In this document: positions 35,870 through 55,934 of the stretch, piece by piece
How positions within the stretch are numbered: the stretch's first letter is position 1
Layout: each line of letters opens with the position of its first letter
Source of the DNA: Jiella marina
GTDB lineage: Bacteria; Pseudomonadota; Alphaproteobacteria; Rhizobiales; Rhizobiaceae
Assembly (NCBI RefSeq): GCF_024359545.1
Contig: NZ_JAKQZG010000007.1
Span: 62,001-126,000, forward strand
Direction of reading: 5' to 3'
DNA length: 64,000 nt
The notes under the pieces: model-generated
What the model was told of the DNA's origin: nothing
Database searches by the model: none
The model's input: only the letters and a program-made list of their open reading frames with translations
Translations under genes and position numbers: made by a program

Positions 35870-37255
35870 CTACATGCCGGGTCGACGCGTATGCCAGTCA
35901 GTCTGGGTCTGGAAGGCGTGGGCGGCTTTCGCCAGACGGGCTTCCGAGAGCGCCGGCCCGGCAAGTTGCATCGAGAGCGGCAGGCCGGCGCTGTCGAACC
36001 CGCTCGGCAGGGTGATCGTCGGCGTGCCGGAAAAATCGAAGGGTGCCGTGAAGCGCAGGAGTCTGACGAGAACGGAGGGGTCCGCGCCGAAGGATGCCAG
36101 CTCGGCAAGGCTCGGCAGGCGCATCGGCATGGTCGGAATGAGGAAGGCGTCCACCTCCTCGAACATCGCCGAAAGGCCGCCGTTGAAGGCGAGCCGCTCG
36201 TGCATGATGTCGCAGAGATCAAGCCCGCCGAGGTCACGGCCTTCCTCGATGAGACCGGCGAGTTCCGGCCCGTAATCCGCCTTTCGCGCCGGATAGGTCC
36301 CGCGATGGGCGACGGCCGTCTCCACCGCGCACATGGGGATCCAGAGGCTGACCAGTCTTTCATGCGGCGGAAACCGCACTTCCTTGATCCTGGCACCCAG
36401 CGAGCGGAAGACCTCCTCGGCGGCCGACAGCGCGGCCGCGGCTTCGGGATCGACGCCGTCGAAGGCGTAGGCGCGGTCGATGCCGATCGTCATGTCCCGG
36501 ATGCTTTGGCCGATGGCGGCAAGATAGTCCGGCACTTCGGCACGAAGGCTCGTGGGATCCTTGTCGTCGGCGCCGGCGATGACGCCGAGGATCGCCGCGG
36601 CATCGCCCGCCGACCGGGCCATCGGGCCGACGTGATCGAGGGAATCGGCCAGCGCAAAGACGCCGTGGCGAGAGACCCGGCCCCAGGTCGGCTTGATGCC
36701 GGTGAGCGCATTGGCCGCCGAGGGAAAGCGGATCGACCCGCCCGTGTCGGAGCCGAGCGAACCATAGGCAAGACCTGTTGCCGGCGCGACGCCGGAACCG
36801 CTCGATGAGGAGCCGGCCCAATGCTCCGGCGCCCAGGGGTTGAGCGGCGGATCGACATCGGGATGGTGAGTGGTGTAGGCGCCCTCGGTCATCTTGAGCT
36901 TGCCGAGGATGATCGCGCCCGCCGCCTCCAGCCGATCGACAACGGTGGCGTTGTAGCCGGGCACGAAGTCGCGATGGATACGGGTGCCGGCAGTGGTGGG
37001 TGCGAAGGTCGTGTAGCAGAGGTCCTTGACCGCGATCGGCACGCCATGGAGCGGGCCGCGCCAGATGCCTTTGCCGATCTCCTCCTCCGCCGCCTTCGCC
37101 TTGTCCATGGCGCGCTCGGCGAGAACGGTCTGATAGCTGCGGTGTTGGCGGTCCAGACGGTCGATGCGCTCCAGCATCGTCTTCGTGACCTCGACGGGCA
37201 AGACCGCACGGCGCTTGAGCGCATCGGAAATCTGGAGAAGGGTCTGGAATTCCAT
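35870..37255 (-). CDS. Amidase, amidase-signature family
   Basis: A 461-residue amidohydrolase. Triad residues: Lys in GVPIAVKDLCYT, cis-Ser in WAGSSSSGSGVAP and Ser in SDTGGSIRFPSAAN. ATG 37255 is used; GTG 37267 is an alternative with no better ribosome binding site. It is the last minus-strand gene of the left amide operon region, 210 bases after the small monooxygenase-like gene, so it may be read through from that operon or have its own promoter. It differs from the other two amidases in the window and is not a recent duplicate of them. Confidence 0.92.
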   Translation of the reverse strand: MEFQTLLQISDALKRRAVLPVEVTKTMLERIDRLDRQHRSYQTVLAERAMDKAKAAEEEIGKGIWRGPLHGVPIAVKDLCYTTFAPTTAGTRIHRDFVPGYNATVVDRLEAAGAIILGKLKMTEGAYTTHHPDVDPPLNPWAPEHWAGSSSSGSGVAPATGLAYGSLGSDTGGSIRFPSAANALTGIKPTWGRVSRHGVFALADSLDHVGPMARSAGDAAAILGVIAGADDKDPTSLRAEVPDYLAAIGQSIRDMTIGIDRAYAFDGVDPEAAAALSAAEEVFRSLGARIKEVRFPPHERLVSLWIPMCAVETAVAHRGTYPARKADYGPELAGLIEEGRDLGGLDLCDIMHERLAFNGGLSAMFEEVDAFLIPTMPMRLPSLAELASFGADPSVLVRLLRFTAPFDFSGTPTITLPSGFDSAGLPLSMQLAGPALSEARLAKAAHAFQTQTDWHTRRPGM

Positions 37256-37465
37256 GGGCTCGGTCACCTTGGTTGAACGCGGGCGTCAGGAGGACATGCC
37301 AATCGAGTGGGCACACCGAACGCCGTTGCTGTGCACTCGGCGATTATGATCGTGGTGCTTCGACCAGAGCACGTTCCGGCTGGGGTCGGCTGACCGGCGG
37401 TTCGCCTGAATGCACCACCCCTACCGGCACTGGAAATAATCATGTCGACCATTGCGATGGGTTCG

Positions 37466-37765
37466 TCAGGTCTTCCTGGAAAATTCCTCCGCCGTCACCA
37501 GCACGACCTCGCCGTCGAGAATCGGCTTGGCGATGGCGAAAAATTTCGCCACCGCTTCCGAGCCGTTGTGCCGATCCATCGCGGCCGTATCGGCGAAGCG
37601 CTCATAGGTCGTGAAACGGCACGGGTCTTCGGCATCCTGGGAGAGGAAGAAGTCGAGCGTCTCCGGCTCGCTCGCCTGGACATGGGCGGCGACGTCGAGG
37701 AGGGCGGCCTTCATGACCGCCTCCTCGCCCGCCTTCACGCGAATGACCGCGGTTATGGTCGGCAT
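37466..37765 (-). CDS. Small ABM/YgiN-like monooxygenase-fold protein
   Basis: A 99-residue protein with the antibiotic-biosynthesis-monooxygenase dimeric alpha/beta fold. The family-type segments are TAVIRVKAGEEAVMKAALLDV, SEPETLDFFLSQD and ERFADTAAMDRHNGSEAVAKFF. Members act as cofactor-free quinol monooxygenases or have no known activity. Its ATG overlaps the stop of the upstream amidase gene by one base, so it is part of that operon. What it does in amide metabolism is unclear. Confidence 0.82.
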   Translation of the reverse strand: MPTITAVIRVKAGEEAVMKAALLDVAAHVQASEPETLDFFLSQDAEDPCRFTTYERFADTAAMDRHNGSEAVAKFFAIAKPILDGEVVLVTAEEFSRKT

Positions 37766-39279
37766 CAGAGCGCTTTCCAGTCGACGCCGGACTCGAAGGC
37801 GGCAGCGGCCTGATAGATCGTCGCTTCCGCGTAGTCCTTGCCCACCAGCATCATCCCGACGGGCAGGCCGTCGACGAGGCCGCAGGGGATCGACATGGCC
37901 GGATGGCCGGTCACGTCGAACGGGCAGGTGGCGGCGACCATCTCGAAGGCGCGCGTGACGATCTCTTCCAGCGGTGCGTCCTTGCCGGGCAGCTTGCTCG
38001 CGACCATGGGCAGGGTCGGCATCACCAGGAGGTCGTAGCGGGAGAAGGTCTCGTCATAGGCGGCCTTCATCTTGCGCGACAGGTTCTGGGCCTTGGCATA
38101 GTATCGACCGCGATAATGGCTGAGGCCCCACTGGCCGACGAGCATCGAGATCTTGAGGGTCTTCGACAATTCGTCCGCCCGCGACGTCCAGGCGGAATGG
38201 GCGTCGAGAAGGGCGACGTCGTACTGGCCCTTCCAGTTGAAGCCCATGCCGTTGCCGATCATCATCTGGGCGGTCAGGCCTTCCAGCGCGATCGGCTGCC
38301 ATACGGCAGCGGTGAGGCTGTGTTCGGGAAGCGAGACCTCCTCGACCACGGCCCCCATGCCGCCAAGCTTGGCGACGGCGTCCTTCACCTTGTCGGCGAC
38401 CGCTTCCTGCATGTTGGGCAGGGTGAAGCCCTCGGTCAGGATGCCGATCTTCAGGCCGTCCACGCCCTTGCCGAGCGCTGCCGTATAGGCCTCCACTTTC
38501 GGGGCGTACTGGCGCGGGTCGAGCCCGTCGGCGCCCGCCAGGACTTCCAGCAGAAGCGCATTGTCGGCGACATTCGCCGTCATCGGGCCGGTGTGGTCGA
38601 TCGTGGTCTCGATCGGCATCACGCCGGTATAGGGCACGAGGCCGTGGGTCGCCTTCATGCCGTAGATGCCGCAATAGGCGGCGGGAATGCGGATCGAACC
38701 GCCCTGATCCCCGCCGATCGCCATGTCGACTTCGCCCGCGGCGACCAGCGCGCCGCTGCCCGAGGACGAGCCACCGGCCGAATAGCCCATCTTGTGGGGG
38801 TTGTGCACCGGACCCGGATCGGAGGTGTGACTGCCGCCGGACAGGCAGAAATGCTCGCAGACCGCCTTGCCCTTGATGGTCGCGCCGGCATCCAGCATGC
38901 GCGTGACGATGGTGGCGTCGATCGTCGGGACGAAGCCTTCCAGCGTCGCCGCACCGTTCATCATCGGGACGCCGGCAAGCGCCACATTGTCCTTCAGAAC
39001 GACCGTCTTGCCGTCGAGCTTGCCGCCGGGCTTGCCCTTGATCTCGCTCTTGTAGGTCCAGGCATTGTACTTGTTCTCCTCGCCGACCGGCCGATAGCCG
39101 GGAACGCGGGGATAGGTCACCGGCGCGACGTAGTCGGGCAAGGCGTCGACCAGATCATAGGCGTCGAAATTCGCGCCCATGAGGGCGAGATAATCGGCCG
39201 CTTCCTCGATCGTGAACGTCATGCCGAGATCGGCGGCCATGGCCTGGACCTGTTCGACATTCGGACGGGTGATGGGCAT
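37765..39279 (-). CDS. Amidase, amidase-signature family
   Basis: A 504-residue amidohydrolase. Lys is in [17 protein letters not shown], cis-Ser in [13 protein letters not shown] and Ser in [16 protein letters not shown]. The GGDQGGSIR wording and the length are those of the amidase subgroup found beside urea/amide ABC importers. AGGGAGAAA precedes the ATG. It is 154 bases after the last ATPase gene of the left Urt-like importer, which points to the imported amide as its substrate. Ammonia and a carboxylate would be the products. Confidence 0.93.
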
Positions 39280-39433: not shown

Positions 39434-40135
39434 TCAGGCGACTTCCATGCCGACATTTCCGGACAGCAGCGCTTCACGGTCGATCTCACCGGTGATCCGG
39501 CCCTTCTGGATGTTGAGGACGCGGTCCGACAGCGAGGTAATGAAATCGAGATTCTGCTCGACGATGATCATCGAGAGCGACCAGCGTTCGCGCAGGATCT
39601 TCAGCGTCTCGATCATCTCCTCGATGATCGAGGGCTGAATGCCTTCGGTCGGTTCGTCGAGCAGGATGAGCTTGGGTCTTGCGCACAGGCAGCGGGCGAG
39701 GGCCAGAAGCTGCTGCTCGCCGCCCGACAGCGCGCCGCCGCGCCGGTCGAGAAGGCGCACGAGGCGGGGGAAGTCTTCGAGCACGCCGTCGATCACACCG
39801 CGGTCCTCGCGCTTGGCCGCGGCGAGGCCCATTCGCAGATTCTCCATGACCGTCAGCGCGGGGAAGATCTCCCGGCCCTGGGGCACGAGACCGAGGCCGA
39901 GACGCGAGCGCTGATGGGCCGCCATCCTGGTGACGTCGGTGCCGCCGAAGTGCACGGTCCCACCGCTCGCCGGAAGCGAGCCCATGATGGTGCGCATCAG
40001 GGTCGTCTTGCCCATGCCGTTATGGCCGAGAATGCCGAGGAACTCGCCTTCGGCCATGGCGAAGTTGACGCCGGACAGGATCGGCACGCGTCCATAGCCG
40101 GCGCGCAGATCGGTGGTTTCAAGAAGCGTGCTCAT
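39434..40135 (-). CDS. ABC transporter ATP-binding protein, UrtE/LivF-like (left operon)
   Basis: A 233-residue ATPase. Walker A GHNGMGKT, signature LSGGEQQ, Walker B LILLDEPTEGIQP. The EGIQP ending is typical of UrtE. ATG 40135 overlaps the stop of the UrtD-like gene (ATGA). It pairs with that ATPase to drive the two permeases encoded upstream. Confidence 0.92.
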   Translation of the reverse strand: MSTLLETTDLRAGYGRVPILSGVNFAMAEGEFLGILGHNGMGKTTLMRTIMGSLPASGGTVHFGGTDVTRMAAHQRSRLGLGLVPQGREIFPALTVMENLRMGLAAAKREDRGVIDGVLEDFPRLVRLLDRRGGALSGGEQQLLALARCLCARPKLILLDEPTEGIQPSIIEEMIETLKILRERWSLSMIIVEQNLDFITSLSDRVLNIQKGRITGEIDREALLSGNVGMEVA

Positions 40136-40860
40136 GCCGCCACCTTCTTGCCGAGATAGACGTCGCGCACCCGGCTGTCGGCGAGCACCGCCTCGACGCT
40201 CTCCTCGATCAGGATGCGTCCCTGGTGGAAGACCGTCACCGTCCTGGCGATCATCTTGATGAACTCCATGTCGTGCTCGACGACGATCAGCGCGCGGGTC
40301 TTGTTGATCTCGCGGATGATTTCGGCGGTGCGGACGGTCTCTTCGTCGGTCATACCGGCGGCCGGTTCGTCGAGAAGGATCAGCTCCGGCTCGGCGGCGA
40401 GCACCGTGCCGATCTCCACCCATTGGCGCTGGCCATGGGAGAGCTGGCCGACGATCGCATGGGCGAGATCGGTGAGCTGGATGCGTTCGAGCACCTCCTC
40501 GACGATCTTGCGGGTGGCCTGGCGCGTGGCAGTGCGCTGGGCGGCGAGCCAGATGTTTTCTCGCACGGACAGGCCGTTGAAGACGTTGGGGATCTGCGTC
40601 TTGATGCCGATCCCGAGCCGGGCGATCTCGTGGGAGGCATGACCGGCGATCGGATGCTCGCGAAAGCGGATCGTGCCTTCGCTCGGGGTGAGCTGGCCCG
40701 TCAGCATCTTGAAGAAGGTGCTCTTGCCGGCGCCGTTCGGGCCGATGAGACAGCGCAGCTCCATTTCGTCGAGGGTGAAATTGACGTCGTCATTGGCGAC
40801 CACCCCGCCGAAGCGCATGGTCAGATTGCGGGTTTCGAGAAGGGGAGGGATGGTCGACAT
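40132..40860 (-). CDS. ABC transporter ATP-binding protein, UrtD/LivG-like (left operon)
   Basis: A 242-residue ATPase. Walker A GPNGAGKS, the UrtD-type signature LSHGQRQW and Walker B LILLDEPAAGM are seen. ATG 40860 has GGAG 8 bases before it and is preferred to GTG 40869, although the latter would overlap the upstream stop. The C-terminal extension VFHQGRILIEESVEAVL...VRDVYLG is as in LivG/UrtD. Confidence 0.92.
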   Translation of the reverse strand: MSTIPPLLETRNLTMRFGGVVANDDVNFTLDEMELRCLIGPNGAGKSTFFKMLTGQLTPSEGTIRFREHPIAGHASHEIARLGIGIKTQIPNVFNGLSVRENIWLAAQRTATRQATRKIVEEVLERIQLTDLAHAIVGQLSHGQRQWVEIGTVLAAEPELILLDEPAAGMTDEETVRTAEIIREINKTRALIVVEHDMEFIKMIARTVTVFHQGRILIEESVEAVLADSRVRDVYLGKKVAA

Positions 40861-40865
40861 GGCGC

Positions 40866-41930
40866 TCACTCCGCTCCCACGGGCTGTCCCGCGGCCAGAT
40901 CGTTGCGCTTCGCCTCGGCGCCCTTGCGGCGGGCATCACCGACAAGGTGCCAGCCGGACAGGATCAGATTGCGAAGCGTCGGGACCAAGCCTTTGGGCAG
41001 GAGGACGACGAAGACGACCAGGATGGCGCCGAGGATGAGGTTGGAATTGAAGCTCTGCTGGGAGCCGATCTGGGAGACCAGATACTGGATCAGGAAGCAG
41101 CCCACGACCGGCCCGATCAGCGTGCCGAGACCGCCGATGCAGATCCAGATAATGATCTCGGCCGACAGCGACAGGGCGAAGATCGTCGGTCCGACGAAGG
41201 CGCCCCAATTGACGTAGAGCGCGCCGGCGAGCCCGGCGATGGCGCCGCCGAGGACGAAGACCCAGAGCTTCACCACGCGCGGATCGTAGCCCAGAAGCGC
41301 CGCTCGCGTCTCGTTCTCGCGCACGGCGACGGCGACCCGGCCGAAGCGGCTGCGCAGGAGAAGGCGCAGCCCGACATAGACCGCGATCAGCACGCCGCCG
41401 GTGACATACCAGGAGTGCTCGGGAAACAGGATTCCCGAAGGGTCGAACGGCATGTTGAAGGTCGGCACCGCCGGCATGCCGTTGAAGCCGCCCAGCCGGG
41501 CCACGCCGATCGTGTATTCGTCGCCCGCCGTCGAGTTGAAGACGTTGAACAGGATCAGCGTCACGGTGAGGGTGATGACGCCGAGATAGACGTCGCTGAT
41601 CCGGCCATAGAAGACGAAATAGCCGAGCGCGAGCGCGAACAGGCTCGGCACGATGATGGCCATCAGGATCGCCGGTGTGGAATCGCCGAAATTGATTGCC
41701 GCGACGGCATAGGCGTAGGCGCCGAGGCCGAAGAACGCCGTCTGGCCGAAGCACAGGATGCCGCCGAAGCCCCAGATGAAGCCGAGGCTGAGTGCGAGCA
41801 CCGCCATGGAGGCGAACAGGGTGAACTGCATCAGCTGAAACAGGTCGACATAGCCCGGCATGAGGGCGACGGCGATGCAGGCCACGAGGACGGCGGCGAT
41901 CTGGACGGAGAGCTTGGCGGTGTCGGACAT
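40866..41930 (-). CDS. Branched-chain/urea-type ABC permease, UrtC/LivM-like (left operon)
   Basis: A 354-residue membrane protein. Family segments: LSLGFIWGFGGILCFGQTAFFGLGAYAY, the long cytoplasmic loop RFGRVAVAVRENETRAALLGYD and LGGAIAGLAGALYVNWG. Some 9-10 helices are expected. It is the second permease of the importer, and its 5' end is 3 bases after the stop of the UrtB-like gene. Confidence 0.93.
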   Translation of the reverse strand: MSDTAKLSVQIAAVLVACIAVALMPGYVDLFQLMQFTLFASMAVLALSLGFIWGFGGILCFGQTAFFGLGAYAYAVAAINFGDSTPAILMAIIVPSLFALALGYFVFYGRISDVYLGVITLTVTLILFNVFNSTAGDEYTIGVARLGGFNGMPAVPTFNMPFDPSGILFPEHSWYVTGGVLIAVYVGLRLLLRSRFGRVAVAVRENETRAALLGYDPRVVKLWVFVLGGAIAGLAGALYVNWGAFVGPTIFALSLSAEIIIWICIGGLGTLIGPVVGCFLIQYLVSQIGSQQSFNSNLILGAILVVFVVLLPKGLVPTLRNLILSGWHLVGDARRKGAEAKRNDLAAGQPVGAE

Positions 41931-41933: not shown

Positions 41934-42800
41934 TCAGACGGTCCCCTTGAAGAAGCGGCCGGAAATGCCCTGGGGCAGGAGCCGGATCAGCACGATGGCG
42001 GAGAGGAAGAGGATCACCTCGCCATAGACGGGCGTGGTGAAATAGGCGCCGAGCTGGTTGACGAAGCCGAAGAGACCCGAGGCTGAGAGCGTGCCGGAAA
42101 TGATCGCGGCCCCGCCGCCGACGACGGTGATGAAGGCCTTGGCGACATAGGCGCCGCCCATCACCGGCGTGATGCCGGAGACCGGCGCGAGCACGCCGCC
42201 GGCCAGCCCCGTGACCGCCGCGCCCAGGCTGAAGGTCGCCATGTAGACATGGGTCGGATTGACCCCGAGAACCGCCGCCATGTCAGGGTTCTGCATCACC
42301 GCCCGGGCGATCAGCCCGTAGCGCGTGTAGCGCAGGACGGCATAGACGATCGCCATCATCACGATCGCGACGGCGAGCAGGAACAGCGTGTACCAGGAGG
42401 TCCGGTAGTCTCCGATCGAGAAGCCGCCGAGCGGCGTCGGGACACCCTGCATGGTGTTGCCGAAGATCGTCGTGACGATCCCGATGATCAGAAGGCTGAG
42501 TCCCCAGGTCGCCAGCATGGAATCCACCAGCCGTCCATACAGGAAGCGGACCAGGCAACGCTCGACTAGCAGCCCGACCAGGCCGACGAAGAGCGGCGCG
42601 ACGACCAGCATCGCGATCCAGATGTTCACCCCGGCATTGGCGGAAAGCACGGCCGCATAGGCGCCGAGCATGACGAACTCGCCGTGAGCGAGATTGATGA
42701 TCCGCATCATCCCGAAGATGATCGCAAGGCCCAGGCACAGCAGAAACAGGGATGCGGCGCCGTTGATGACGTTGAGCGCCAGGAGGGCGGCAAGGTCCAT
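41934..42800 (-). CDS. Branched-chain/urea-type ABC permease, UrtB/LivH-like (left operon)
   Basis: A 288-residue membrane protein. Motifs: FGMMRIINLAHGEFVMLGAY, WGLSLLIIGIVTTIFG and the GLAGGVLAPVSGITPVMG loop. ATG 42800 is used; GTG 42809 is an alternative and neither has a strong ribosome binding site. A hairpin separates it from the binding-protein gene, so its expression may be lower than that of the binding protein. Confidence 0.92.
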   Translation of the reverse strand: MDLAALLALNVINGAASLFLLCLGLAIIFGMMRIINLAHGEFVMLGAYAAVLSANAGVNIWIAMLVVAPLFVGLVGLLVERCLVRFLYGRLVDSMLATWGLSLLIIGIVTTIFGNTMQGVPTPLGGFSIGDYRTSWYTLFLLAVAIVMMAIVYAVLRYTRYGLIARAVMQNPDMAAVLGVNPTHVYMATFSLGAAVTGLAGGVLAPVSGITPVMGGAYVAKAFITVVGGGAAIISGTLSASGLFGFVNQLGAYFTTPVYGEVILFLSAIVLIRLLPQGISGRFFKGTV

Positions 42801-42903
42801 GTCGGTCACGTCCGATCGAAAGAGGAAGCCGGGGCGGCTGGCACGCCGGTCGAAGAGGCAAACCCGCCTATCCGACCGAACCGCGCCTTGCTCTGGTGAT
42901 CGA

Positions 42904-42969: not shown

Positions 42970-44211
42970 TCAGCTATCGATGTCGATCACATATTGCTGG
43001 TTGTCGTTCGGATTCTCGGCCAGATTGCAGACCATGGCGGTGTCGGACGGCTGAACGTCCTGGAACGTCTCGAGCACGTTCCACTTCCGGTCCTGAACCT
43101 GTGCGAGATAGGCGTTGCGGACGGTGTGATGGGTCGGCCCGTCGAGGGTGACCTCGCCACTGGGACCCTTGTAGGAAATGCCGCTTTCCAGCGCCTCGAT
43201 CACCTTCATCCGGTCGAGCGTGCCGGCCTTCTTGACGCCTTCGGCCCAGAGATAGACGCCCTCATAGGTCGTGGCCGTGAGTTCGCTGATGTAGGGGATC
43301 TCGGCCCAGCGGGACTTCAGCTTGTCGACGAAAGCCGTGCTTTCGGGCGTCTCCAGCTCCTCGTAATAGCCGTAGCAGCCATAGATGTCCTTGCTCACCG
43401 AGGCATCGACCGTCGAGGGCTCGTTGACGAGACCGAAAGTGGTGGAGGCGATCGGGATCTGGCCCTTCATGCCGGCGGATTCCCACTGGCGGTAGAAGGA
43501 GACGTGGTTGCCGCCGACGAGGGCCGAGAGGATCAGGTCGGGCTTGGCGGCCTGGATCTTGGAGATGGTCGGGCCGAAATTGGTGACGTCCAGCGGGAAG
43601 AAGTCGACGGAGAGGATCTCGCCGCCATTGTCGCGCATGTATTTCGTCATCCACTTGGCGGTGATCTGGCCGTAATTGTAGTCGGCCGCCAGGATGTAGG
43701 CCTTCTTGCCGCTGTTCTTCATGGCGAAGGGAACGAGCTTCTCGACCGTCTGGGCCGGCGTCGTTCCGGTGCAGAAGACGTTCCGGTCGCATACGCCGCC
43801 CTCATAGAGCACGTTGTAGAAATAGAGCACCTGGAAGCGGTCGAAGGTCGGCCGGATCGCTTCGCGCGACGCCGAGGTGATGCCGCCGTGAACCACGTCC
43901 ACCCGGTCCTTCAAGGCCAGTTGCTGGGCGTATTGCGAATAGAGCTGGATGTTCGACTGGGTGTCGTACTGGATGAGCTCCAGCGGCCGGCCGAGCAGGC
44001 CGCCGGCTTCGTTGATTTCGTCGATCGCAAGCTGGATCGCCGCGACCATGGTGACGCCCGATGACGCGATCGCGCCGGACTGGTCGAGCAGGCTGCCGAC
44101 CCTGATCGGATCGTCGGCGCCGAAAGCATAGCGCGTCGAAATCGCCGGGCTCGCCAGGACCGCGGAGGCGGCCATCGTGGAGTGCAGGAACTTGCGGCGC
44201 GAAATTGTCAT
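42970..44211 (-). CDS. Urea/short-chain amide-type ABC substrate-binding protein, Tat-exported (left operon)
   Basis: A 413-residue SBP family 5-like (Peripla_BP_5) protein of the UrtA/FmdD/AmiC group. The twin-arginine leader MTISRRKFLHS is followed by a hydrophobic Ala-rich core. Group-specific segments include VGSLLDQSGAIASSG, YEGGVCDRNVFCTGTTPAQ and AADYNYGQITAKWM. ATG 44211 is chosen for the leader and a GAAGGGAAA ribosome binding site. Ligand is probably a small amide or urea, based on the neighbouring amidases and AmiC-type sensors. The right-operon SBP is its paralog but has a Sec leader. Confidence 0.92.
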   Translation of the reverse strand: MTISRRKFLHSTMAASAVLASPAISTRYAFGADDPIRVGSLLDQSGAIASSGVTMVAAIQLAIDEINEAGGLLGRPLELIQYDTQSNIQLYSQYAQQLALKDRVDVVHGGITSASREAIRPTFDRFQVLYFYNVLYEGGVCDRNVFCTGTTPAQTVEKLVPFAMKNSGKKAYILAADYNYGQITAKWMTKYMRDNGGEILSVDFFPLDVTNFGPTISKIQAAKPDLILSALVGGNHVSFYRQWESAGMKGQIPIASTTFGLVNEPSTVDASVSKDIYGCYGYYEELETPESTAFVDKLKSRWAEIPYISELTATTYEGVYLWAEGVKKAGTLDRMKVIEALESGISYKGPSGEVTLDGPTHHTVRNAYLAQVQDRKWNVLETFQDVQPSDTAMVCNLAENPNDNQQYVIDIDS

Positions 44212-45654: not shown

Positions 45655-45667
45655 CGGAGAATCTGTC

Positions 45668-48234: not shown

Positions 48235-49233
48235 TCAGGCAGCGATCCCCGAAATCGACTTCAGAACCGACGCCCCGATCGTGTATTTCGGGTCGACCAT
48301 GTTGCCCAGCCGGATGCGGCCGCATTGGGTGAGGAGCATGTAGGCGTCGATCTCGTCGAAGCCGAAATCGGATGCCATCCAGCGGATCAACTCGCGATAG
48401 GCGCCGCGCGCGGCGTCCTCCATCGGACGCGACGAGCCGATCGTCATGTAGAATTTCTCGTTTTCCAGCCGCGGCGTCTTGATCGTCCAGCCCTTGATCA
48501 GGTCGACGCGCAGGGTCGTGACGGTCGGATGCTCGATGGCGACGCCGCAAAGCTCGCCGTCGCCCTGGGCGGCGTGGCAATCGCCGACGTAGAGATAGGC
48601 GCCCTTGGTGTTGACCGGCAGATAGATCACGGCGCCGGGGGCGACGTCCGGCAGGTCCATATTGCCGCCGTAATAGTCCGGGACGAGGGAGGAGATCGCC
48701 TCGATCTCCGGCGCGGTGCCGATGGTGCCGATGAAGGGCTCGTAGGGCAGCGTGATCCGGTCGTTCCAGACCGTGCCCTTTTCCTCGGTGATTTCCAGCT
48801 TCCTGACCCGCTCCGGCAGGGCAGGGGTGATCATCGCCGTGTCGCCGGTCGGAACGAGGCCGCCGAATTCCGGCATGATCACGGTCGTGCCCCGTGGCTG
48901 CGGCCCGCGCGGGACGACGCTTTCGATATAGACGGCGAGGCAGTCGCCCTTCTCGGCGCCATTGACGTAGATCGGGCCGTTCTGCGGATTGAGATAGGGA
49001 AAGTTGAGAATCTCGCTCGGCTTGTCGGTCTCAGACTGGATCGCACCCTCGAAAGCGTCGTGGGTCTCGGCCGAGACGACCGCGCCGGGGTCGATGGTCA
49101 GGACCGGCTCGACGAAGGCGCCGTAGACATAGTGATACTTGCCCTGGCTCGCCTCGGTGATGGAATGGCTCGTGAGGGCCTTGCCCTTTGCAACGGCCTT
49201 GCGGGCCATGATGGAATCGTCGAACCAGCTCAT
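48235..49233 (-). CDS. Acetamidase/formamidase family protein
   Basis: A 332-residue FmdA/AmdA-type hydrolase, converting short amides such as formamide or acetamide to acid and ammonia. Family features: HYVYGAFVEPVLTIDPGAVVSAETHDAFEG, NGPIYVNGAEKGDCLAVYIE, NMDLPDVAPGAVIYLPVNTKGAYLYVGDCHAAQGDGE. These carry the conserved metal-site-like His, Asp and Glu residues (ETHDAF, GDCHAAQGDGE). ATG 49233 follows GAGAGGAAAG. It is 56 bases after the last ATPase gene of the right Urt-like importer, so importer and enzyme are probably co-expressed. Confidence 0.93.
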   Translation of the reverse strand: MSWFDDSIMARKAVAKGKALTSHSITEASQGKYHYVYGAFVEPVLTIDPGAVVSAETHDAFEGAIQSETDKPSEILNFPYLNPQNGPIYVNGAEKGDCLAVYIESVVPRGPQPRGTTVIMPEFGGLVPTGDTAMITPALPERVRKLEITEEKGTVWNDRITLPYEPFIGTIGTAPEIEAISSLVPDYYGGNMDLPDVAPGAVIYLPVNTKGAYLYVGDCHAAQGDGELCGVAIEHPTVTTLRVDLIKGWTIKTPRLENEKFYMTIGSSRPMEDAARGAYRELIRWMASDFGFDEIDAYMLLTQCGRIRLGNMVDPKYTIGASVLKSISGIAA

Positions 49234-49289: not shown

Positions 49290-50012
49290 CTAGACCGCCA
49301 GATGCCGCCGGACTGTCTCCCGATCTTCCAGCGCTTCCCGGCCGATCTCGGCGGTGAAGACGCCCTTGTCCATGACATAGCACCGCCCCGCCATCGCGCG
49401 GATCATGTCGAGATTCTGCTCGACGAAGACGACGGTGATGCCGGTGTCACGGTTCAGTTCGACCATGATGCGCGCGATGTCCTGGACGATGTTCGGCTGA
49501 ATGCCTTCCGAAGGCTCGTCGAGCAGGATCAGGTCCGGCCCACCCATCAGCACGCGGCCGATGGCAAGCTGCTGCTGCTGACCGCCCGACAGCGTGCCGG
49601 CGCGCTGATTGCGCCGCTCTTCGAGGATCGGGAAGTAGCCGTAGATCGTCTCGATGCGGGCCTGTGCTTCCTTGTCGCCCGAGCCGTCGATCGACTGTCC
49701 AACGAGGAGGTTTTCGTAGACACTCATGCGCGGAAACACGTCGCGTCCCTGTGGCACGTAACCGATGCCGAGCCGCGCCCGGCGGTGGGCGGAAAGTCCG
49801 TTGACCTCCGCGCCTTCGAACAACACGCTCCCCTGCTGCGGCGGCAGGAGACCGATCAGGCTCTTCATCAGCGTCGACTTGCCGACGCCATTGCGCCCGA
49901 TCACCGCGACGATCTCGCCTTGGCGGACCGACAGATCGACCCCCTGCAGCACCGGCTTGCCGCCATAGCCGGCCCAAAGGCCCATGGTTTCGAGGAGAAC
50001 TTCCTTACGCAT
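49290..50012 (-). CDS. ABC transporter ATP-binding protein, UrtE/LivF-like (right operon)
   Basis: A 240-residue ATPase. Walker A GRNGVGKS, signature LSGGQQQ and Walker B LILLDEPSEGIQP, like its left-operon counterpart. ATG 50012 lies inside the end of the UrtD-like gene, with an 8-base overlap. The last gene of the importer set, before the formamidase. Confidence 0.92.
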   Translation of the reverse strand: MRKEVLLETMGLWAGYGGKPVLQGVDLSVRQGEIVAVIGRNGVGKSTLMKSLIGLLPPQQGSVLFEGAEVNGLSAHRRARLGIGYVPQGRDVFPRMSVYENLLVGQSIDGSGDKEAQARIETIYGYFPILEERRNQRAGTLSGGQQQQLAIGRVLMGGPDLILLDEPSEGIQPNIVQDIARIMVELNRDTGITVVFVEQNLDMIRAMAGRCYVMDKGVFTAEIGREALEDRETVRRHLAV

Positions 50013-50721
50013 CGACTTCGCCCAGATAGATCGCCGCCACGCGCTCGTCGGCGACGATCTCGTCGATCGTGCCCTGCGCGAAGATCTTGCCGAAATGCAG
50101 AACCGTGACCTTCTGGGCGATCTGGCGCACAAAGGCCATGTCGTGCTCGACCGCGAGAACGCTGACACCCTCGGCGTTCAGCGCCTTCACCATCTCGCCG
50201 GTGGCATGGGTCTCGTCCGGTGTCATGCCGGCGGTCGGTTCGTCGAGGAGGAGGAGCTTCGGTTTCAGCGCGATCGCCATGCCGATCTCCAGCCATTGCT
50301 TCTGACCATGGCTGAGCGAGCCTGCAAGCTGCTTCTCGGCGTCCTTCAGTTTGAGGAACTCCAGGAGCCGGTCGATCTCCTCATTCAGGCCGGCGCCTTC
50401 GAGATGATGCTGCAGGGCGATCTGAAGGTTCTGGCGCACGCGCAGTGCCTGGAAGATGCCCGGCACCTGGAACTTCACGGAAATGCCGCGGCGGACCCGT
50501 TCGAAGGGTTTCGCCCTGGTGATCTCCTCGCCGTCATAGAGGATCGTGCCGCCGGACGGCGTGTGCTCGCCCAGCACCAGCTTGAAGAAGGTGCTCTTGC
50601 CGGCGCCGTTCGGGCCGATCAGGCAGTGGACCTCGCCCTTTTCCAGGGCGAAATCGACATTGTCGGTGACGTGCAGGCCGCCGAACCACTTGTCGAGCTT
50701 GCGGGTTTCGAGGATCGCCAT
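50005..50721 (-). CDS. ABC transporter ATP-binding protein, UrtD/LivG-like (right operon)
   Basis: A 238-residue ATPase. Walker A GPNGAGKS, UrtD-type signature LSHGQKQW and Walker B LLLLDEPTAGM. ATG 50721 shares one base with the stop of the UrtC-like gene (TGATG). The open frame continues upstream inside the permease gene, but that part is a shadow. Confidence 0.92.
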   Translation of the reverse strand: MAILETRKLDKWFGGLHVTDNVDFALEKGEVHCLIGPNGAGKSTFFKLVLGEHTPSGGTILYDGEEITRAKPFERVRRGISVKFQVPGIFQALRVRQNLQIALQHHLEGAGLNEEIDRLLEFLKLKDAEKQLAGSLSHGQKQWLEIGMAIALKPKLLLLDEPTAGMTPDETHATGEMVKALNAEGVSVLAVEHDMAFVRQIAQKVTVLHFGKIFAQGTIDEIVADERVAAIYLGEVDA

Positions 50722-51797
50722 CACGCGCGCTCCCTCGCCAGGCGTCGCCGCAGGCCCTTGGAAAACAGGGAGCCGACGGTGATGAAGATGCCGCTCGGCG
50801 CAAGCAGGATGGTGACGACGAGCAGGAAGCCCATCATCACAAGCGCATACTGACTTCCGTAGATCGTCAGATACTGGAAGCCCGCGAGCACCAGCAGCGT
50901 GCCGAAGAGCGTCGTCGTCAGGTCGCTGCGTCCGCCGACCGCGACCCAGACGACAGGGAGGGCGGCCGCCGACATGCCCATGGAGGACGGCGTGATGTAG
51001 TTGCCCCAGGCGGTGTAGAGAACGCCCGAAAGGCCCGCCAATCCGGAACCGATGACGAAGGCGCCGAGCTGATAGCGGCGGATGTCGTAGCCAAGCATCT
51101 CGGCGCGCTGCGGGTTCTCGCGGATCGCCACCAGCACGTTGCCCATGCGCGAGTTCACCAGCATCCGAAGCGCGAGATAGGCGATCACCAGAAGCGCCAG
51201 CGTCATGTAGTAGAGCGTCACGTCGGGATAGAGCACGATGTCGCCGCCCGGCCATGGAATGGTGAGCGAGGGCATGCCGCCCATACCGTTGAAGCCGTTG
51301 AGGCGGGCCGAGCCGATCGCCCATTCCGGCCCCGCCGTCTGGGACATGAAGCGTTCCAGTACCAGCGTCACCGACAGGGTGACGATGCCGAGGAAGACGC
51401 CGCTGATCCTGCCGAAGAACAGGAAGTAGCCCAGCACGGCCGCAAACAGCGCCGAGATTCCGACAGCGGCGAGAAGCGAGAAGAAGGTCAGCCCGTAGGC
51501 GTCGCCGAGATTGATGGTCAACACGCCATAGGCATAGCCGGCGACGCCGAAGAAGGCGGTCTGGCCGAAAGAGAGCGCGCCGCCATAGCCCCAGATCAGG
51601 CTGAGGCCCAGCGCCATGAAGGTCCAGTTGAAGAAGTAGACATTGTTGCCGACGTCATAGCCATCGGCAAACATCGGATAGATGCAGGCGAGGATCAGGA
51701 CTACGGCGAAGGCGGACCAGAAACCGGGCCCCTTGCCGAGGGTCTGCGGGCCTTCGAGAAGCCTGAAGGTCGAGATGATGGAGTTACGCGAAGACAC
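50721..51797 (-). CDS. Branched-chain/urea-type ABC permease, UrtC/LivM-like (right operon)
   Basis: A 358-residue permease. Segments MALGLSLIWGYGGALSFGQTAFFG, NSRMGNVLVAIRENPQRAEMLGYDIRRY and GSGLAGLSGVLYTAWG mark the family. It starts at GTG 51797, with AAGGG 7 bases before it and only one base after the UrtB-like stop. Confidence 0.92.
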   Translation of the reverse strand: MSSRNSIISTFRLLEGPQTLGKGPGFWSAFAVVLILACIYPMFADGYDVGNNVYFFNWTFMALGLSLIWGYGGALSFGQTAFFGVAGYAYGVLTINLGDAYGLTFFSLLAAVGISALFAAVLGYFLFFGRISGVFLGIVTLSVTLVLERFMSQTAGPEWAIGSARLNGFNGMGGMPSLTIPWPGGDIVLYPDVTLYYMTLALLVIAYLALRMLVNSRMGNVLVAIRENPQRAEMLGYDIRRYQLGAFVIGSGLAGLSGVLYTAWGNYITPSSMGMSAAALPVVWVAVGGRSDLTTTLFGTLLVLAGFQYLTIYGSQYALVMMGFLLVVTILLAPSGIFITVGSLFSKGLRRRLARERA

Positions 51798-51798
51798 G

Positions 51799-52671
51799 TC
51801 AGGCCCTTTCCCGCAGGATGAAGCCGGTCAGGCCCCGCGGCAGAATGCGAATGACGATAATGACGGCGACGAGGAGGCCGATCTGCCCGGCAAGCTGCCC
51901 CTGCCAGGAGGTCAGCCCCGCCTTCACCACCGCGAGGATCGCGGCAGCCGGCGCCGTGCCGAGAAAGATGTCGGCGCCGCCGACGACGACCGTGACGAAG
52001 GCCTCCACCACAAAGGCCGCGCCCATGGTGGGGACGAGGGTCATGGTCGGCGCGTAGAGGCCGCCGGCGAGCCCGGCCAGAGCCGCCCCGAGGCCGAAGG
52101 TCAGGCTGTAGATCATCGGCGTGTTGACGCCCAGCGCCTCGGCGATGTGCGGCACCTGGATCGTCGCCCGGGCGAGGATGCCGAAGCGGGTGCGCGTGAA
52201 GATCAGCCAGAGGACGGCGAGCGTCGCGACGGCCGCCGCCATCAGGACGAGGCGGTAGATGGAATAGGAATAGGCGCCGACGGCGAAGCTGCCGAAGGGC
52301 GTGCCCGTGCCCGGCATGGTCGAGCCGAGAATGATCAGCGTCCCCTGAGTCGCGATCATCGAGATGCCCCAGGTCACGACGATGGAATCGAGCGGCCGGT
52401 TATAGAGATGGCGGATGATCGCCCGCTCCAGCAGCATGCCGACGAGGCCGGCGACGACTGCCCCGAGGAGAATCGCGAAGGGCAGCGGCAGGCCCATCCG
52501 CGCGGCACTCGCGGAGACATAGGCGCCGCACAGGATGAACTCGCCATGGGCGAGATTGATGATGCCCATCATGCCGAAGATCACCGCGAGGCCGCAGGCG
52601 GAGAGAACGAGAAAGGCGAAGGCGTCGCCGGTCTGGTAGATAAAGGAGAAGAGGCCGGACAGAAAATCCAT
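51799..52671 (-). CDS. Branched-chain/urea-type ABC permease, UrtB/LivH-like (right operon)
   Basis: A 290-residue permease. Segments FGMMGIINLAHGEFILCGAYV, WGISMIATQGTLIILGS and ALAGLAGGLYAPTMTLVPTMG are typical. The first permease gene of the operon, separated by 133 bases and a hairpin from the binding-protein gene. Confidence 0.93.
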   Translation of the reverse strand: MDFLSGLFSFIYQTGDAFAFLVLSACGLAVIFGMMGIINLAHGEFILCGAYVSASAARMGLPLPFAILLGAVVAGLVGMLLERAIIRHLYNRPLDSIVVTWGISMIATQGTLIILGSTMPGTGTPFGSFAVGAYSYSIYRLVLMAAAVATLAVLWLIFTRTRFGILARATIQVPHIAEALGVNTPMIYSLTFGLGAALAGLAGGLYAPTMTLVPTMGAAFVVEAFVTVVVGGADIFLGTAPAAAILAVVKAGLTSWQGQLAGQIGLLVAVIIVIRILPRGLTGFILRERA

Positions 52672-52804: not shown

Positions 52805-54043
52805 TTACTCGGAAGCCGGCGGCGGGTTCGACGGCGTGTACTGGGCTTCCGGGTTGCTCTTGGTCAGATCGCAGCCGGCTTCGCCCAGCCAGTAGGGCTT
52901 GATGTCCTCCCAGACCTTCGGGAAGGTGATCGAGTGATCTTCCTCGACCCGGGCGAGGTAGATCGTGTGGGACATGTGCTGGCTCTTCGGGTCGATGCAG
53001 ACATTCCCTTCCGGCGCGTCCATGCAGACGTCGCCCTCGGCGATCACGTCGCGGATCGCGTCATGATCCGTGGTGCCGGCCCGCTCGACCATCTGCTTGT
53101 AGAGATAGACGGCGAGGTAGGAATTCTCGGCTTCCTGATTGATGTAGGGCTCGTCCGGGAACTTCGCGCGCCACTTCTCGACGAAGGCCTTGCTCTCCGG
53201 ATTGTCGATTTCCTCGATCCAGTTCGTCGTCACATACATGTTGGCGAGCGAGGGCGGCTGGAAGCGCTTGTGCTCGTAGCCCTGGCCGACATTGACCGAG
53301 GACGCCATCGGCAGGTCGACATTCGCCGAAGCGGCCTGCTCGTAATAGGAGGCCTGGGCCGTGCCGACGAGGAGCGTGACCAGGAAGTCGGCATCCGCCT
53401 GCTGGATGTTCTGGATCGTCTGGGAGAACTGCGAGACGCCCAGCGGGATGAACTCCTCGCCGACCATTTCGCCGCCGTTTTCCGCGACGATGTTGCGAAC
53501 CCATTCGGCCGAGATCTGGCCGAAATTGTAGTCGGCGGCGATCGTGTAGACCTTCTTGCCGTACTTCTCCATCATGTAGGGGATCAGCGTCGAGAACTGC
53601 TGTTCGGGCACGGCGCCGGTGACGATCATGTTGGCGTCGCAGACGCCGCCCTCATACTGGTTGTTGTAGAAGGCGAGTCCGTCGAACTGGTCGACGATCG
53701 GCCGGTAGGCTTCGCGCGAGGCCGATGAGAAGCCGGCGAAGACCACGTCCACCTTGTCGCGCTGCAGGACGCGGCGCATGAATTCCTGATAGCGACGATT
53801 GTCCGACTGGGTGTCGTAGATCACCAGTTCGAGCGGGCGCCCGTTGATGCCGCCGCTTTCGTTGATTTCCTCGGCCGCGAGCTGGATTCCATGCACCTTG
53901 CCGATGGTCGCGACGGCGAAGTCGCCGGACTGGTCTTCCAGGACACCCATCTTGATCGGCTCGCCATCCTGGGCGAAGGCCGCCGACGACAAGGCAAAAA
54001 GGGTCCCTAGCGCCGCAAGGACGCCCGTTGATCGCTTTTTCAT
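52805..54043 (-). CDS. Urea/short-chain amide-type ABC substrate-binding protein, Sec-exported (right operon)
   Basis: A 412-residue UrtA/FmdD-group binding protein. Sec signal MKKRSTGVLAALGTLFALSS ends near AFA-QDG. Then MGVLEDQSGDFAVATIGKVHGIQLAAEEIN, YEGGVCDANMIVTGAVPEQQ and AADYNFGQISAEWVRN, paralleling the left SBP. Near the C-terminus are two Cys (GDVCMDAPEGNVC) possibly forming a disulfide. GGAGTG precedes the ATG. It follows amiR after only 20 bases, so sensor, antiterminator and transporter share a transcript. Confidence 0.93.
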   Translation of the reverse strand: MKKRSTGVLAALGTLFALSSAAFAQDGEPIKMGVLEDQSGDFAVATIGKVHGIQLAAEEINESGGINGRPLELVIYDTQSDNRRYQEFMRRVLQRDKVDVVFAGFSSASREAYRPIVDQFDGLAFYNNQYEGGVCDANMIVTGAVPEQQFSTLIPYMMEKYGKKVYTIAADYNFGQISAEWVRNIVAENGGEMVGEEFIPLGVSQFSQTIQNIQQADADFLVTLLVGTAQASYYEQAASANVDLPMASSVNVGQGYEHKRFQPPSLANMYVTTNWIEEIDNPESKAFVEKWRAKFPDEPYINQEAENSYLAVYLYKQMVERAGTTDHDAIRDVIAEGDVCMDAPEGNVCIDPKSQHMSHTIYLARVEEDHSITFPKVWEDIKPYWLGEAGCDLTKSNPEAQYTPSNPPPASE

Positions 54044-54063
54044 GTGTCACTCCGTGTGGGGGA

Positions 54064-54720
54064 TTATTCGGCGGATCTGAGCTTCAGGCTTGAATCCGAT
54101 CCGCACTCGTCGCTCGCCGCACTTCGTTGGACGACGAATTGGCAGTAAGTTTCCACGCTGACGCGTGCGTGCATGCTTTGATTTCGCAGGTAAGCGAAGG
54201 CGGCATCATCATTGCAGCCGCGCTCTTTCATCACCTTGAGCACCGCCTTGATGACGAAGCGGCGCAGGCGGCGGCGCTGCTCGTGGGCCTCCAGCGCATC
54301 CATCATGTTGGCCTTGCGGGCATGTTCGTTGACCGCGAGATAAAGCGCCGAATAGACCGAGCCGCCATGGATCGGCTTCGACAGGAAAGCCGTCGCACCG
54401 AACTGCATCAGCGTCTTCAGCCGGCTCGGCGCCTCCACGCCGACGAGGCCGACCACCGGGGCAAGCGGGATCAGGTCGTTAGTGGCGAGGCGTGGTACCG
54501 GCGGCATGCGCGGCAGGTCGCCGTCGAGGATGAGGACGTCGCTTGCCGGATCGAGATCGATCGGCGCCAACTCTCCGTCGGTCTCCGTCGTTTCGCGCTG
54601 CGACATGGTGAGGCCGAGCCGCGTCAGGATCGGCGACAGGGCTGCTCCAACGCGCCGGTCATCGCTGACAAGGATCGCGTGTCGGCGACTGAAATTCTGG
54701 ATGTATCTCGGCACGGCCAT
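54064..54720 (-). CDS. amiR: AmiR-type ANTAR-domain RNA-binding antiterminator
   Basis: A 218-residue protein. The N-terminal half is a degenerate receiver-like domain (AILVSDDRRVGAALSPIL, LILDGDLPRMP, FGATAFLSKPI) linked by a helix to a C-terminal ANTAR domain (about 150-205: RRLRRFVIKAVLKVMKERG, AFAYLRNQSM). AmiR binds leader RNA to prevent termination when AmiC releases it on amide binding. ATG 54720 overlaps the amiC stop by one base. The overlap and the next gene 20 bases away place it in the right amide operon. It is the only ANTAR protein in the window. Confidence 0.93.
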   Translation of the reverse strand: MAVPRYIQNFSRRHAILVSDDRRVGAALSPILTRLGLTMSQRETTETDGELAPIDLDPASDVLILDGDLPRMPPVPRLATNDLIPLAPVVGLVGVEAPSRLKTLMQFGATAFLSKPIHGGSVYSALYLAVNEHARKANMMDALEAHEQRRRLRRFVIKAVLKVMKERGCNDDAAFAYLRNQSMHARVSVETYCQFVVQRSAASDECGSDSSLKLRSAE

Positions 54721-55934
54721 CAGATCACCCTCAGTTGCGGGCGGCGTGAGACGGTCTCCAGCGAGGGGGCCGCTCTCACGAGATAAGGGTCGGGGCGGAC
54801 GGGGCATGCGGCTTCGACGAGGATGTCGAACTGAAAGTCCTTGCGGGAACGCCCGATGCGCGGCGTGAGGAAACTGTGCATGGTTTCCGGGTCGATGGTG
54901 ACCCGGCCCTGCGGGGCGTCGATCGACTGGCCGCGCGTGGCGGCGAGCACCGCACGCGCCTCCTCCGTGCCGGCCTTCTTCAGACCCAGCGCCAGGAAGC
55001 GCACCGCGAGATAGGCCGATTCCGCTTCGGCCGAAACCGCAGGGCCTTCGGGATAAGACGCGTTGTAGGTCTCGACGAAGGCCCGGTTCATCGGCGTGTC
55101 GATCGAGGCGAAATAGACCGAGGAGCTGATGTGCCCGTCCACGGCCTCCGCTCCGATCTCGTGAAGCTCGGGTTCCGAGAGATTGCAGCTGGCGACCGGG
55201 AAGCGGGTTTTCTGGTCGATGCCGCGCTCCTCGCACGCGGCGCGAAACTGCCGGAAGAAGGCATAGGAGGAGACGCCGATCAGGGCATTGAACACGAAGT
55301 CCGGCCGGGTCTCGAAGATCGCCTCGATGATGGCGGAAAAATCCGTGTCGCCGACCGGCAGAAAGCGCTCGGAGAGGACCTGGCCGCCGCGCTGGGTCAG
55401 GTCCTCGCGCAGGACGCGGTTGCTCTCCCAGCCCCAGATGTAGTTCGAGCCGACGCAGAAGGCGCGCCTGCCGTAATTCGAGACCAGATGGTCGATCATC
55501 GGCGCCATGTGATGGTTCGGCGCCGTGCCGGTGTAGACGACGTTGGCCGAACTCTCGAAGCCTTCGTAATGGGTCGGATACCAAAGAAGCGCGTCCCGCT
55601 TTTCAAAGAGCGGGATCACTTCCTTGCGGCTCGACGAGGTGTAGCAGCCGACGACGTGGCGGATGCCCTGATCGAGCATCGCCTTGGCCTTGTCGGCATA
55701 GTCGACAAGCTGGCTGGCGGGATCGGCGATCGTCGGTTCGAGGATGACGCCCGAACCGGGATCCTCGTTCACCTCCCGGCAGGCCATGAGCGCCCCGTGC
55801 AGCATTGTCCGCCCGACCGTGCCGTAGGAGCCAGTGGTCGAGAACAGAATGCCGATCGGGTAGCTCGTCTTCGTCAAACTCGGATCCCCAACGCGAAAAA
55901 GCCCGTCAGCACGAGGGTGCTGTCCGGGCGACAT
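54720..55934 (-). CDS. amiC: AmiC-type amide sensor, negative regulator of AmiR (right operon)
   Basis: A 404-residue periplasmic-binding-fold protein lacking a signal peptide. It resembles Pseudomonas AmiC closely in places: IGILFSTTGSYGTVGRTMLHG, VVGCYTSSSRKEVIP, DALLWYPTHYEGFE, VYTGTAPNHHMAPMIDH and PQGRVTIDPETMH. In Pseudomonas, AmiC binds amides and controls AmiR; the same pairing is expected here because amiR overlaps its stop. ATG 55934 is used; the extra ~20 N-terminal residues before TSYPIGILF are not conserved. Tandem hairpins lie in its leader. Confidence 0.92.
   Translation of the reverse strand: MSPGQHPRADGLFRVGDPSLTKTSYPIGILFSTTGSYGTVGRTMLHGALMACREVNEDPGSGVILEPTIADPASQLVDYADKAKAMLDQGIRHVVGCYTSSSRKEVIPLFEKRDALLWYPTHYEGFESSANVVYTGTAPNHHMAPMIDHLVSNYGRRAFCVGSNYIWGWESNRVLREDLTQRGGQVLSERFLPVGDTDFSAIIEAIFETRPDFVFNALIGVSSYAFFRQFRAACEERGIDQKTRFPVASCNLSEPELHEIGAEAVDGHISSSVYFASIDTPMNRAFVETYNASYPEGPAVSAEAESAYLAVRFLALGLKKAGTEEARAVLAATRGQSIDAPQGRVTIDPETMHSFLTPRIGRSRKDFQFDILVEAACPVRPDPYLVRAAPSLETVSRRPQLRVI

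Follow-up and report, generated by a model that had tools for sequence, protein, structure and literature searches.

How two neighbouring operons of similar content are kept under separate control, and whether one is a copy of the other, are questions raised by a stretch of the 5.08-Mb genome of the alphaproteobacterium Jiella marina. The window analysed here is 64,000 nucleotides long (positions 62,001–126,000 of contig NZ_JAKQZG010000007.1, RefSeq assembly GCF_024359545.1) and holds two operons, each with a gene for an AmiC-like sensor, a five-gene Urt-like ATP-binding cassette (ABC) importer and amide hydrolases. We think it likely that these are two amide-scavenging operons whose related ABC importers stand under two different sensor–output modules, an ANTAR antiterminator with its leader RNA in operon 1 and a MarR protein in operon 2. 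Overall, the amide catabolism encoded here is of an ordinary kind; the interest of the locus lies in its regulation, where control at the RNA level stands in testable contrast to control at the DNA level. Two control logics, both built on one protein fold, can be compared here as they occur in nature, and the comparison predicts which bases and which partner are worth testing.

Gene content of the two operons

Both operons lie on the minus strand, operon 1 at about 56,030–46,117 and operon 2 at about 45,444–35,870, and are arranged head to tail, not back to back as a preliminary description of this DNA had put it. Operon 1 consists of amiC1, amiR, the gene of a substrate-binding protein (SBP1), two permease genes, two ATPase genes and the genes of an FmdA/AmdA-family enzyme and a tandem nitrilase-family protein. 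Operon 2 consists of amiC2, the SBP2 gene, two permease genes, two ATPase genes and the genes of amidase A, an ABM-domain protein and amidase B. Signal sequences, judged by eye, are absent from both sensors and present on both SBPs. Profile matches bear out the earlier account of two Urt-like importers and two AmiC-like sensors at this place, of the hydrolases (two amidase-signature enzymes, one FmdA/AmdA-family enzyme and a tandem CN_hydrolase protein) and of a MarR gene between the operons, which is divergent and on the plus strand (45,668–46,093). That account did not list the ANTAR gene after the first sensor, the RNA leader, the lack of an ANTAR partner for AmiC2 or the ABM-domain gene. 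The features on which our reading builds, namely gene content, the architecture and conservation of the leader, the ANTAR or MarR genes that stand next to each sensor clade and the pattern in the promoter DNA, are given below with their counts, and coordinates are collected in Table 1.

A leader RNA with a predicted ANTAR target precedes amiC1

Ramesh and colleagues (PMC3369931) describe ANTAR proteins as binding two hexaloops whose first base is A and whose fourth is G. In such a target, formation of the second hairpin excludes a terminator, an arrangement noted there for the AmiR target as well (PMC3369931). In operon 1, amiR directly follows amiC1, and the ANTAR domain of its product exceeds the Pfam cut-off, placing an AmiC-fold sensor next to an ANTAR protein; the AmiR_N domain is weak (20.4 bits, under the cut-off of 27). 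The leader upstream of amiC1 (L003 in our numbering of loci) contains two hexaloop hairpins, P1 and P2, each with A1 and G4, the second overlapping an intrinsic terminator, and this architecture matches the ANTAR mechanism as set out in that report.

Leader counts started from 62 AmiC1-type loci (window included), of which 31 had an SBP1 orthologue (>40% identity) within the locus and were kept; the other 31, which had none there, were excluded. P1 with A1, G4 and complementary arms is found in 27 of the 31 leaders, with the arm variants GAGC/GCTC, GGGC/GCCC, AGGC/GCCT and CCTC/GAGG, and P2 takes the form GGC-RNNGNN-GCC in 30 (22 with A1, 8 with G1). The strict full layout is present in 22 of the 31 orthologous leaders, including that of the window, and in none in 200 rounds of shuffling. 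Because the P2 stem had been chosen after looking at the sequences, the count was repeated with the published rule alone, which 18 of 31 leaders follow, again including the window's (shuffled mean 0.37, maximum 2 in 100 rounds). Both shuffle tests are uncorrected for the relatedness of the leaders.

An alignment and a covariance model were built from 15 of the 31 leaders, leaving aside L009, L217 and L218 (in which the aligner misplaced P1), L196 and 12 longer leaders (L197–L202, L204–L209). Pairing across these 15 sequences reaches 98.8% for the helices of P1, P2 and the upper terminator taken together, and four pairs show two-sided changes, of which one belongs to P1 and three to the upper part of the terminator stem. 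For P2 alone, 100% of cells are paired, and for an 11-pair terminator helix that reuses the GCC 3′ arm of P2 the figure is 93.3%, again with four pairs changing on both sides. The model matches all 16 orthologous leaders outside it (the weakest being L217, E 0.048), and in a search of the genome, among the 150 of 4405 first-look candidates that were scored, it finds one good place, the window leader (E 5.6e-21; next, E 0.63). Weak matches at position 21,337 of the window (E 0.45) and in L102 (0.31) and L095 (0.66) were taken as chance. A perfect-stem terminator search misses the conserved terminator of L003–L010, and pattern and alignment analyses were used instead. No Rfam match was found in the window, which says little, as the ANTAR leader family may be outside the library. 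As a separate observation, the locus of L202 contains a second, weak ANTAR leader match further down (L202:3261–3347, E 0.0088).

Several points weigh against assigning antitermination to this leader. The P1 rule is broken in four of the 31 leaders (L201, L204, L207, L209), the first loop base of P2 is G instead of A in eight, L196 has no such P2, and the strict P2 pattern was, as stated, picked after inspection. The three pairs of P2 are invariant in the 15 aligned leaders, so covariation speaks neither for nor against this hairpin. With 150 of the 4405 initial candidates scored, the genome search could have missed a weak second target. A plain fold of the operon 1 leader is not unusual compared with shuffles (z −1.58). 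A generic sigma-70 scan found no site at the operon 1 promoter, and the −35-like hexamer in Table 1 is therefore a tentative assignment.

The terminator stem reaches ATG 55,934, the amiC1 start called by the open reading frame finder and used in the preliminary description. Since this codon falls inside the terminator, the TTG at 55,877 is the likely start. In the mechanism that we propose for operon 1, AmiC1 would keep AmiR inactive when there is no inducer, as in Pseudomonas AmiC/AmiR, and transcription would end at the terminator before amiC1. A small amide binding to AmiC1 would release AmiR. Free AmiR would then bind the hexaloops of P1 and P2 and lock P2, blocking the terminator that shares its 3′ arm, and the resulting readthrough would allow the sensor, regulator, importer and hydrolases of operon 1 to be made.

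amiC2 lies beside a conserved marR gene

Operon 2 contains no ANTAR gene and no match to the leader model, and the plain fold of its leader is not clearly better than that of shuffles (z −0.01). The conserved neighbour of amiC2 is marR, whose position between the operons is not incidental. In the first 20 loci fetched (13 by amiC2, 7 by amidase A), a MarR gene adjoins amiC2 in every case; 17 have it upstream and divergent, and the other three (L098, L100, L101) have it downstream in the orientation of amiC2. The pairing holds also at loci where this importer type was not seen nearby. Among AmiC2 relatives from named genomes, of which the best 80 of 594 were kept with 4-kb flanks, a MarR of this type is present in 74 and an ANTAR protein in none; if five loci are set aside because their MarR shares at least 97% identity with a training sequence, the proportion becomes 69 of 75. 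AmiC1-type loci (window included) show an ANTAR gene in 30 of 30 and MarR in 0 of 30. Thus sensors of one AmiC-fold clade stand beside MarR proteins of one subfamily, the type found with Rhodococcus nitrile hydratase (NHase). The pair spans Pseudomonadota, Actinomycetota and one Chloroflexota bin, and occurs next to nitrile hydratase genes on plasmids of Rhodococcus sp. M8 and Agrobacterium vitis, next to AmiS/UreI and aliphatic amidase genes on a Mycolicibacterium plasmid, and close to a gene for an amidase on the Aminobacter MSH1 plasmid pBAM1 (L224). A published account places the amidase BbdA on pBAM1 (PMC8460812), and the L224 pair is possibly the regulator of the amidase gene on this pesticide-residue plasmid.

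The association has its exceptions and its sampling has limits, which count against a fixed partnership. Six of the 80 AmiC2 relatives have no MarR; two of these (L156, L181) are cut off by a contig end, and L118, L119, L121 and L186 are real exceptions with upstream DNA. A plasmid locus, L228 (Aureimonas AU20 pAU20c), likewise has the sensor without MarR. The 80 relatives are the best of 594, with 36 named Bradyrhizobium, and the flanks compared are unequal (1.5 kb for AmiC1 loci, 4 kb for AmiC2 loci). One of 15 AmiC2 sequences (L104) was left out of the protein alignment, having a stop upstream of its likely start; in the window, amiC2 probably starts at TTG 45,354.

These neighbourhoods could also arise if AmiC2 were a scavenging or storage protein and MarR answered to another ligand, the two genes sharing a pathway without contact between their products. 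MarR proteins often bind ligands of their own, as this alternative would have it, but the pair persists from Pseudomonadota to Actinomycetota and the Chloroflexota bin, and in the four annotated plasmid cases with the pair the surrounding catabolic genes differ. We regard it as unlikely and favour a working AmiC2–MarR pair.

Three loci with a more distant form of the importer (L099, L105, L106) have, judged by eye, a flotillin-like membrane protein gene between amiC2 and the SBP2 gene. This gene was considered as a sigma-54 activator and rejected on its flotillin-type appearance, by eye and with no family search.

Putative promoter and operator DNA of operon 2

Intergenic DNA was compared in 15 of 21 operon 2 or amiC2 loci, that is, the window and 14 of the 20 fetched; L098–L101, L105 and L106 were omitted. 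Upstream of operon 2, the window carries an element that fits the GG-N10-GC pattern with TGGCAY expected of sigma-54 and is putatively of this type. TGGCAY-N7-GC is found in eight of ten importer-type loci, window included (shuffled mean 0.26, largest 2), L094 and L095 having GA in place of GC, and in none of the five other loci examined; rpoN is present in the genome. Upstream of marR, the core of an AT-rich palindrome is kept in all six aligned Jiella loci and is a candidate MarR operator.

Both assignments meet with objections. The sigma-54-like pattern occurs at nine other places in the window, one of which is the same near-palindromic site on the other strand, and no sigma-54 activator was found among the operon 2 genes. 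The candidate MarR site adjoins marR, with some 190 bp separating it from the operon 2 promoter, so the main target of MarR may be marR itself.

In our proposal for operon 2, cytoplasmic AmiC2 would work with the divergently encoded MarR, amide-bound AmiC2 relieving (or changing) the action of MarR, and the sigma-54-type promoter would tie expression to nitrogen status. For both operons, we infer the ligands, the direction of regulation, a physical contact between AmiC2 and MarR and the transported substrates from gene content and from known relatives.

Enzymes and substrates

The hydrolases of the two operons belong to different families. Amidase A exceeds the PRK07235 cut-off (837.1 versus 545) and has 3a1k as its nearest solved structure; for amidase B, no NCBIfam model is over its cut-off among the 25 of 26 models shown. 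The FmdA-family enzyme of operon 1 meets Pfam FmdA_AmdA and is closest to PDB 5ubu, but fails the formamidase FmdA model NF045496 (68.4, cut-off 500). The tandem nitrilase-family protein has two halves, as had been described, of which the second is without the catalytic Cys. In an alignment of 23 rows (22 proteins, the window's counted twice), Glu, Lys and Cys of the first half are retained in all 23, and the second half (46,117–46,980) has Gly at the catalytic Cys position in all 23, with Glu in 22 and Lys in 15. By its residues, the second half is a conserved pseudoenzyme domain. A limited literature search on tandem or inactive nitrilases together with an AmiC-like sensor returned nothing related, which says little of the wider literature.

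The gap between the fmdA and nitrilase genes (47,845–48,234) is 390 bp long here and about 80–90 bp in another genome (G122). By eye, a common type of palindromic repeat seems to be present in it as two halves; searching the gap itself for repeats gave none, and a 20-base repeat-like motif has a single match in the window, at 48,156.

Could the importers carry urea instead? On this alternative, operon 1, and perhaps operon 2, would import urea or a urea-like compound, and the hydrolases would act on amides arriving otherwise. SBP1 passes TIGR03669 ('urea ABC transporter', cut-off 494.8) with 629.0 and SBP2 reaches 360.9, a score that does not test substrate, and NCBIfam would name SBP1 a urea-transport protein, which speaks against amide uptake. 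However, neither protein meets the cut-off of the UrtA model TIGR03407 (492.75; SBP1 248.4, SBP2 265.1), which two other SBPs of the genome (L044, L046) pass, so that urea transport seems already served. The enzymes of operon 1 are of the FmdA and nitrilase families, its switch is of the AmiC/AmiR kind, and no urease model matched its genes in the profile searches run. A published suggestion is that urt-like genes beside a formamidase may carry formamide (PMC13209695). We therefore judge urea import a doubtful alternative to amide import. Automatic names such as urea transporter or formamidase may mislead for such operons, and specialisation of the two operons for different substrates is plausible.

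History of the importers and sensors

The importers are alike and the hydrolases different, as had been noted earlier; the likeness is limited, with identities of 40–44% between corresponding importer proteins of operons 1 and 2 and a discordant ATPase A tree. The importer phylogeny gives a divided answer. SBP1 and SBP2 form sister clades (100/99), and the permease A clades are also sisters, more weakly (87/82). The operon 2 ATPases join the three other Urt-like ATPases of the genome (95/89, on long branches) and not those of operon 1. For most SBP rows the tree tool warned of unlike letter composition. Operon 2 proteins form a common group drawn from several families of the order, and operon 1 orthologues are likewise found in several families. 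Operon 2 lies within none of six other operon 1 regions read at 16–40 kb. Both the operon 1 sensor and the operon 2 amidase A were found in seven Jiella genomes. Only two of these, the window genome and J. pacifica, show the operons side by side; G122 has them about 50 kb from each other, and G444, G445, G447 and G448 have them on separate contigs, amidase A being the one part of operon 2 seen in G447.

The sensors tell a different story from the SBPs. AmiC1 and AmiC2 are 26.5% identical and not sisters, which indicates that the sensor was not duplicated along with the importer. The final tree was built from 48 of the 85 AmiC2 loci of named genomes or plasmids and from 36 of the 61 AmiC1 loci outside the window. 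Its ANTAR-linked sensors make up a single group (100/100) and lie with Urt-like SBPs (97/87, 99/95); a 100/100 branch separates them from the MarR-linked clade.

The preliminary description had attributed the two operons to a duplicated importer module, and recent duplication of one sensor–importer module in this lineage, followed by specialisation, would account for the sister clades of SBPs and permease A and for the shared importer gene order. Yet at 40–44% identity, with a discordant ATPase tree and with each type having its own orthologues in other families, a local duplication is not supported, and the sensors are not sisters. We consider it very improbable; the earlier observation was largely right, its interpretation only partly so. 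The unrooted tree favours, and leaves unproven, a history in which cytoplasmic sensing arose twice. It may be, and we hold the chances to be even, that transporter-type binding proteins twice became cytoplasmic amide sensors, one coupled to ANTAR and the other to MarR, and that both became attached to related importers that now lie side by side, giving two independent thresholds for related substrates.

Least probable of all is that AmiC2 has no tie to MarR and uses AmiR of operon 1, both sensors feeding one antiterminator: the genome has two ANTAR genes, one of them next door in operon 1, but rule counts and leader-model searches led us to reject an AmiR target shared with operon 2 (there is no second good leader match among the genome candidates scored and none in operon 2, the published rule is followed by two of 15 operon 2 regions, the window's not among them, with a shuffled mean of 0.5), and no ANTAR gene lies within 4 kb in any of the 80 AmiC2 relatives.

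Comparison with known systems

Operon 1 resembles the Pseudomonas aeruginosa AmiC/AmiR amidase operon in combining a periplasmic-binding-fold sensor with an ANTAR antiterminator. The AmiR target there is described as a leader likewise with two hexaloop hairpins and an overlapping terminator (PMC3369931), but it is that of amiE, whereas the Jiella leader precedes the sensor gene itself. The Jiella leader also differs in governing a five-gene importer together with FmdA- and nitrilase-family enzymes. Of the systems described in one report (PMC13209695), a Klebsiella plasmid amiC-amiR-ABC acetamidase operon joins AmiC, AmiR and an importer in one operon, with different enzymes, and the urt-fmdA cluster of Pseudomonas veronii has urt-like genes with fmdA, amiC and amiR being absent from it as presented there.

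UrtABCDE urea importers share the five-gene architecture and SBP family with both operons; the two proteins of this genome that pass the UrtA model, however, belong to a group that includes neither SBP1 nor SBP2. Rhodococcus nitrile hydratase clusters are controlled by an AmiC-like/MarR pair (NhhC/NhhD, NhlC/NhlD), in which the sensor acts on the MarR regulator in answer to amide. Plasmid p1 of Rhodococcus sp. M8 is similar to operon 2 in having an AmiC-like protein of the same clade and a MarR (MarR profile, E 3.1e-24) beside nthBA, and differs in that no such importer is annotated in the 11 kb read and in a sensor identity of 35%; compared with the Rhodococcus NHase regulators, operon 2 of Jiella has a sigma-54-like promoter. 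The mycobacterial acetamidase operon (AmiA, AmiC, AmiS) has a similar sensor pair. On the Mycolicibacterium plasmid, MarR, sensor, AmiS/UreI transporter and aliphatic amidase genes occur together, and uptake is assigned to an AmiS/UreI-family transporter rather than an ABC importer.

Coordinates and neighbouring genes

Table 1. Features of the two operons, in window coordinates
Feature	Coordinates	Strand	Evidence or remark
TTGACA, putative −35-like hexamer, operon 1 promoter	56025..56030	-	in 6/7 leaders L003-L009
P1 hexaloop hairpin GAGC-AGCGTT-GCTC, first half of predicted ANTAR target	55974..55987	-	A1, G4, complementary arms in 27/31 orthologues
P2 hexaloop hairpin GGC-AATGTC-GCC, second half of predicted ANTAR target	55927..55938	-	3′ arm overlaps terminator
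Intrinsic terminator before amiC1 (GCCCG..CAGCAC / GTGCTG..CGGGC, T run)	55896..55929	-	
amiC1, cytoplasmic AmiC-like sensor, likely TTG start	54720..55877	-	PF13433; PDB 1pea (AmiC) E 1.7e-70
amiR, ANTAR antiterminator	54064..54720	-	PF03861 37.7 bits, cut-off 27.3
SBP1, exported substrate-binding protein	52805..54043	-	PF13458; TIGR03669 629 bits, cut-off 494.8
Permease A1	51799..52671	-	PF02653
Permease B1	50721..51797	-	PF02653
ATPase A1	50005..50721	-	PF00005
ATPase B1	49290..50012	-	PF00005
FmdA/AmdA-family amidase	48235..49233	-	PF03069; PDB 5ubu E 3.1e-129
Tandem nitrilase-family protein (two CN_hydrolase halves)	46117..47844	-	first half 46,981-47,844, second half 46,117-46,980
marR, divergent, conserved neighbour of amiC2	45668..46093	+	PF01047
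AT-rich imperfect palindrome, candidate MarR operator	45631..45655	-	just upstream of marR
Sigma-54-like −24/−12 element TGGCACGAAACATGC, operon 2	45429..45444	-	TGGCAY-N7-GC
amiC2, cytoplasmic AmiC-like sensor, MarR-linked clade	44317..45354	-	PF13458; PDB 1pea E 1.6e-14; tree
SBP2, N-terminal twin-arginine-type signal by eye	42970..44211	-	PF13458; below TIGR03669 cut-off
Permease A2	41934..42809	-	PF02653
Permease B2	40866..41930	-	PF02653
ATPase A2	40132..40869	-	PF00005
ATPase B2	39434..40135	-	PF00005
Amidase A, PRK07235 family	37765..39279	-	NF005565 837.1 bits, cut-off 545; PDB 3a1k E 2.9e-140
ABM-domain small protein, 99 aa, between the two amidases	37466..37765	-	PF03992
Amidase B, amidase-signature enzyme	35870..37267	-	PF01425

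Outside the two operons, the window contains an AcrB-type pump gene with a HlyD-type partner (28,905–33,073) and, just beyond operon 1 (57,365–61,958), genes of the NAD-linked nickel hydrogenase type, encoding a NuoE/F-like diaphorase protein and a NiFe large-subunit-like protein.

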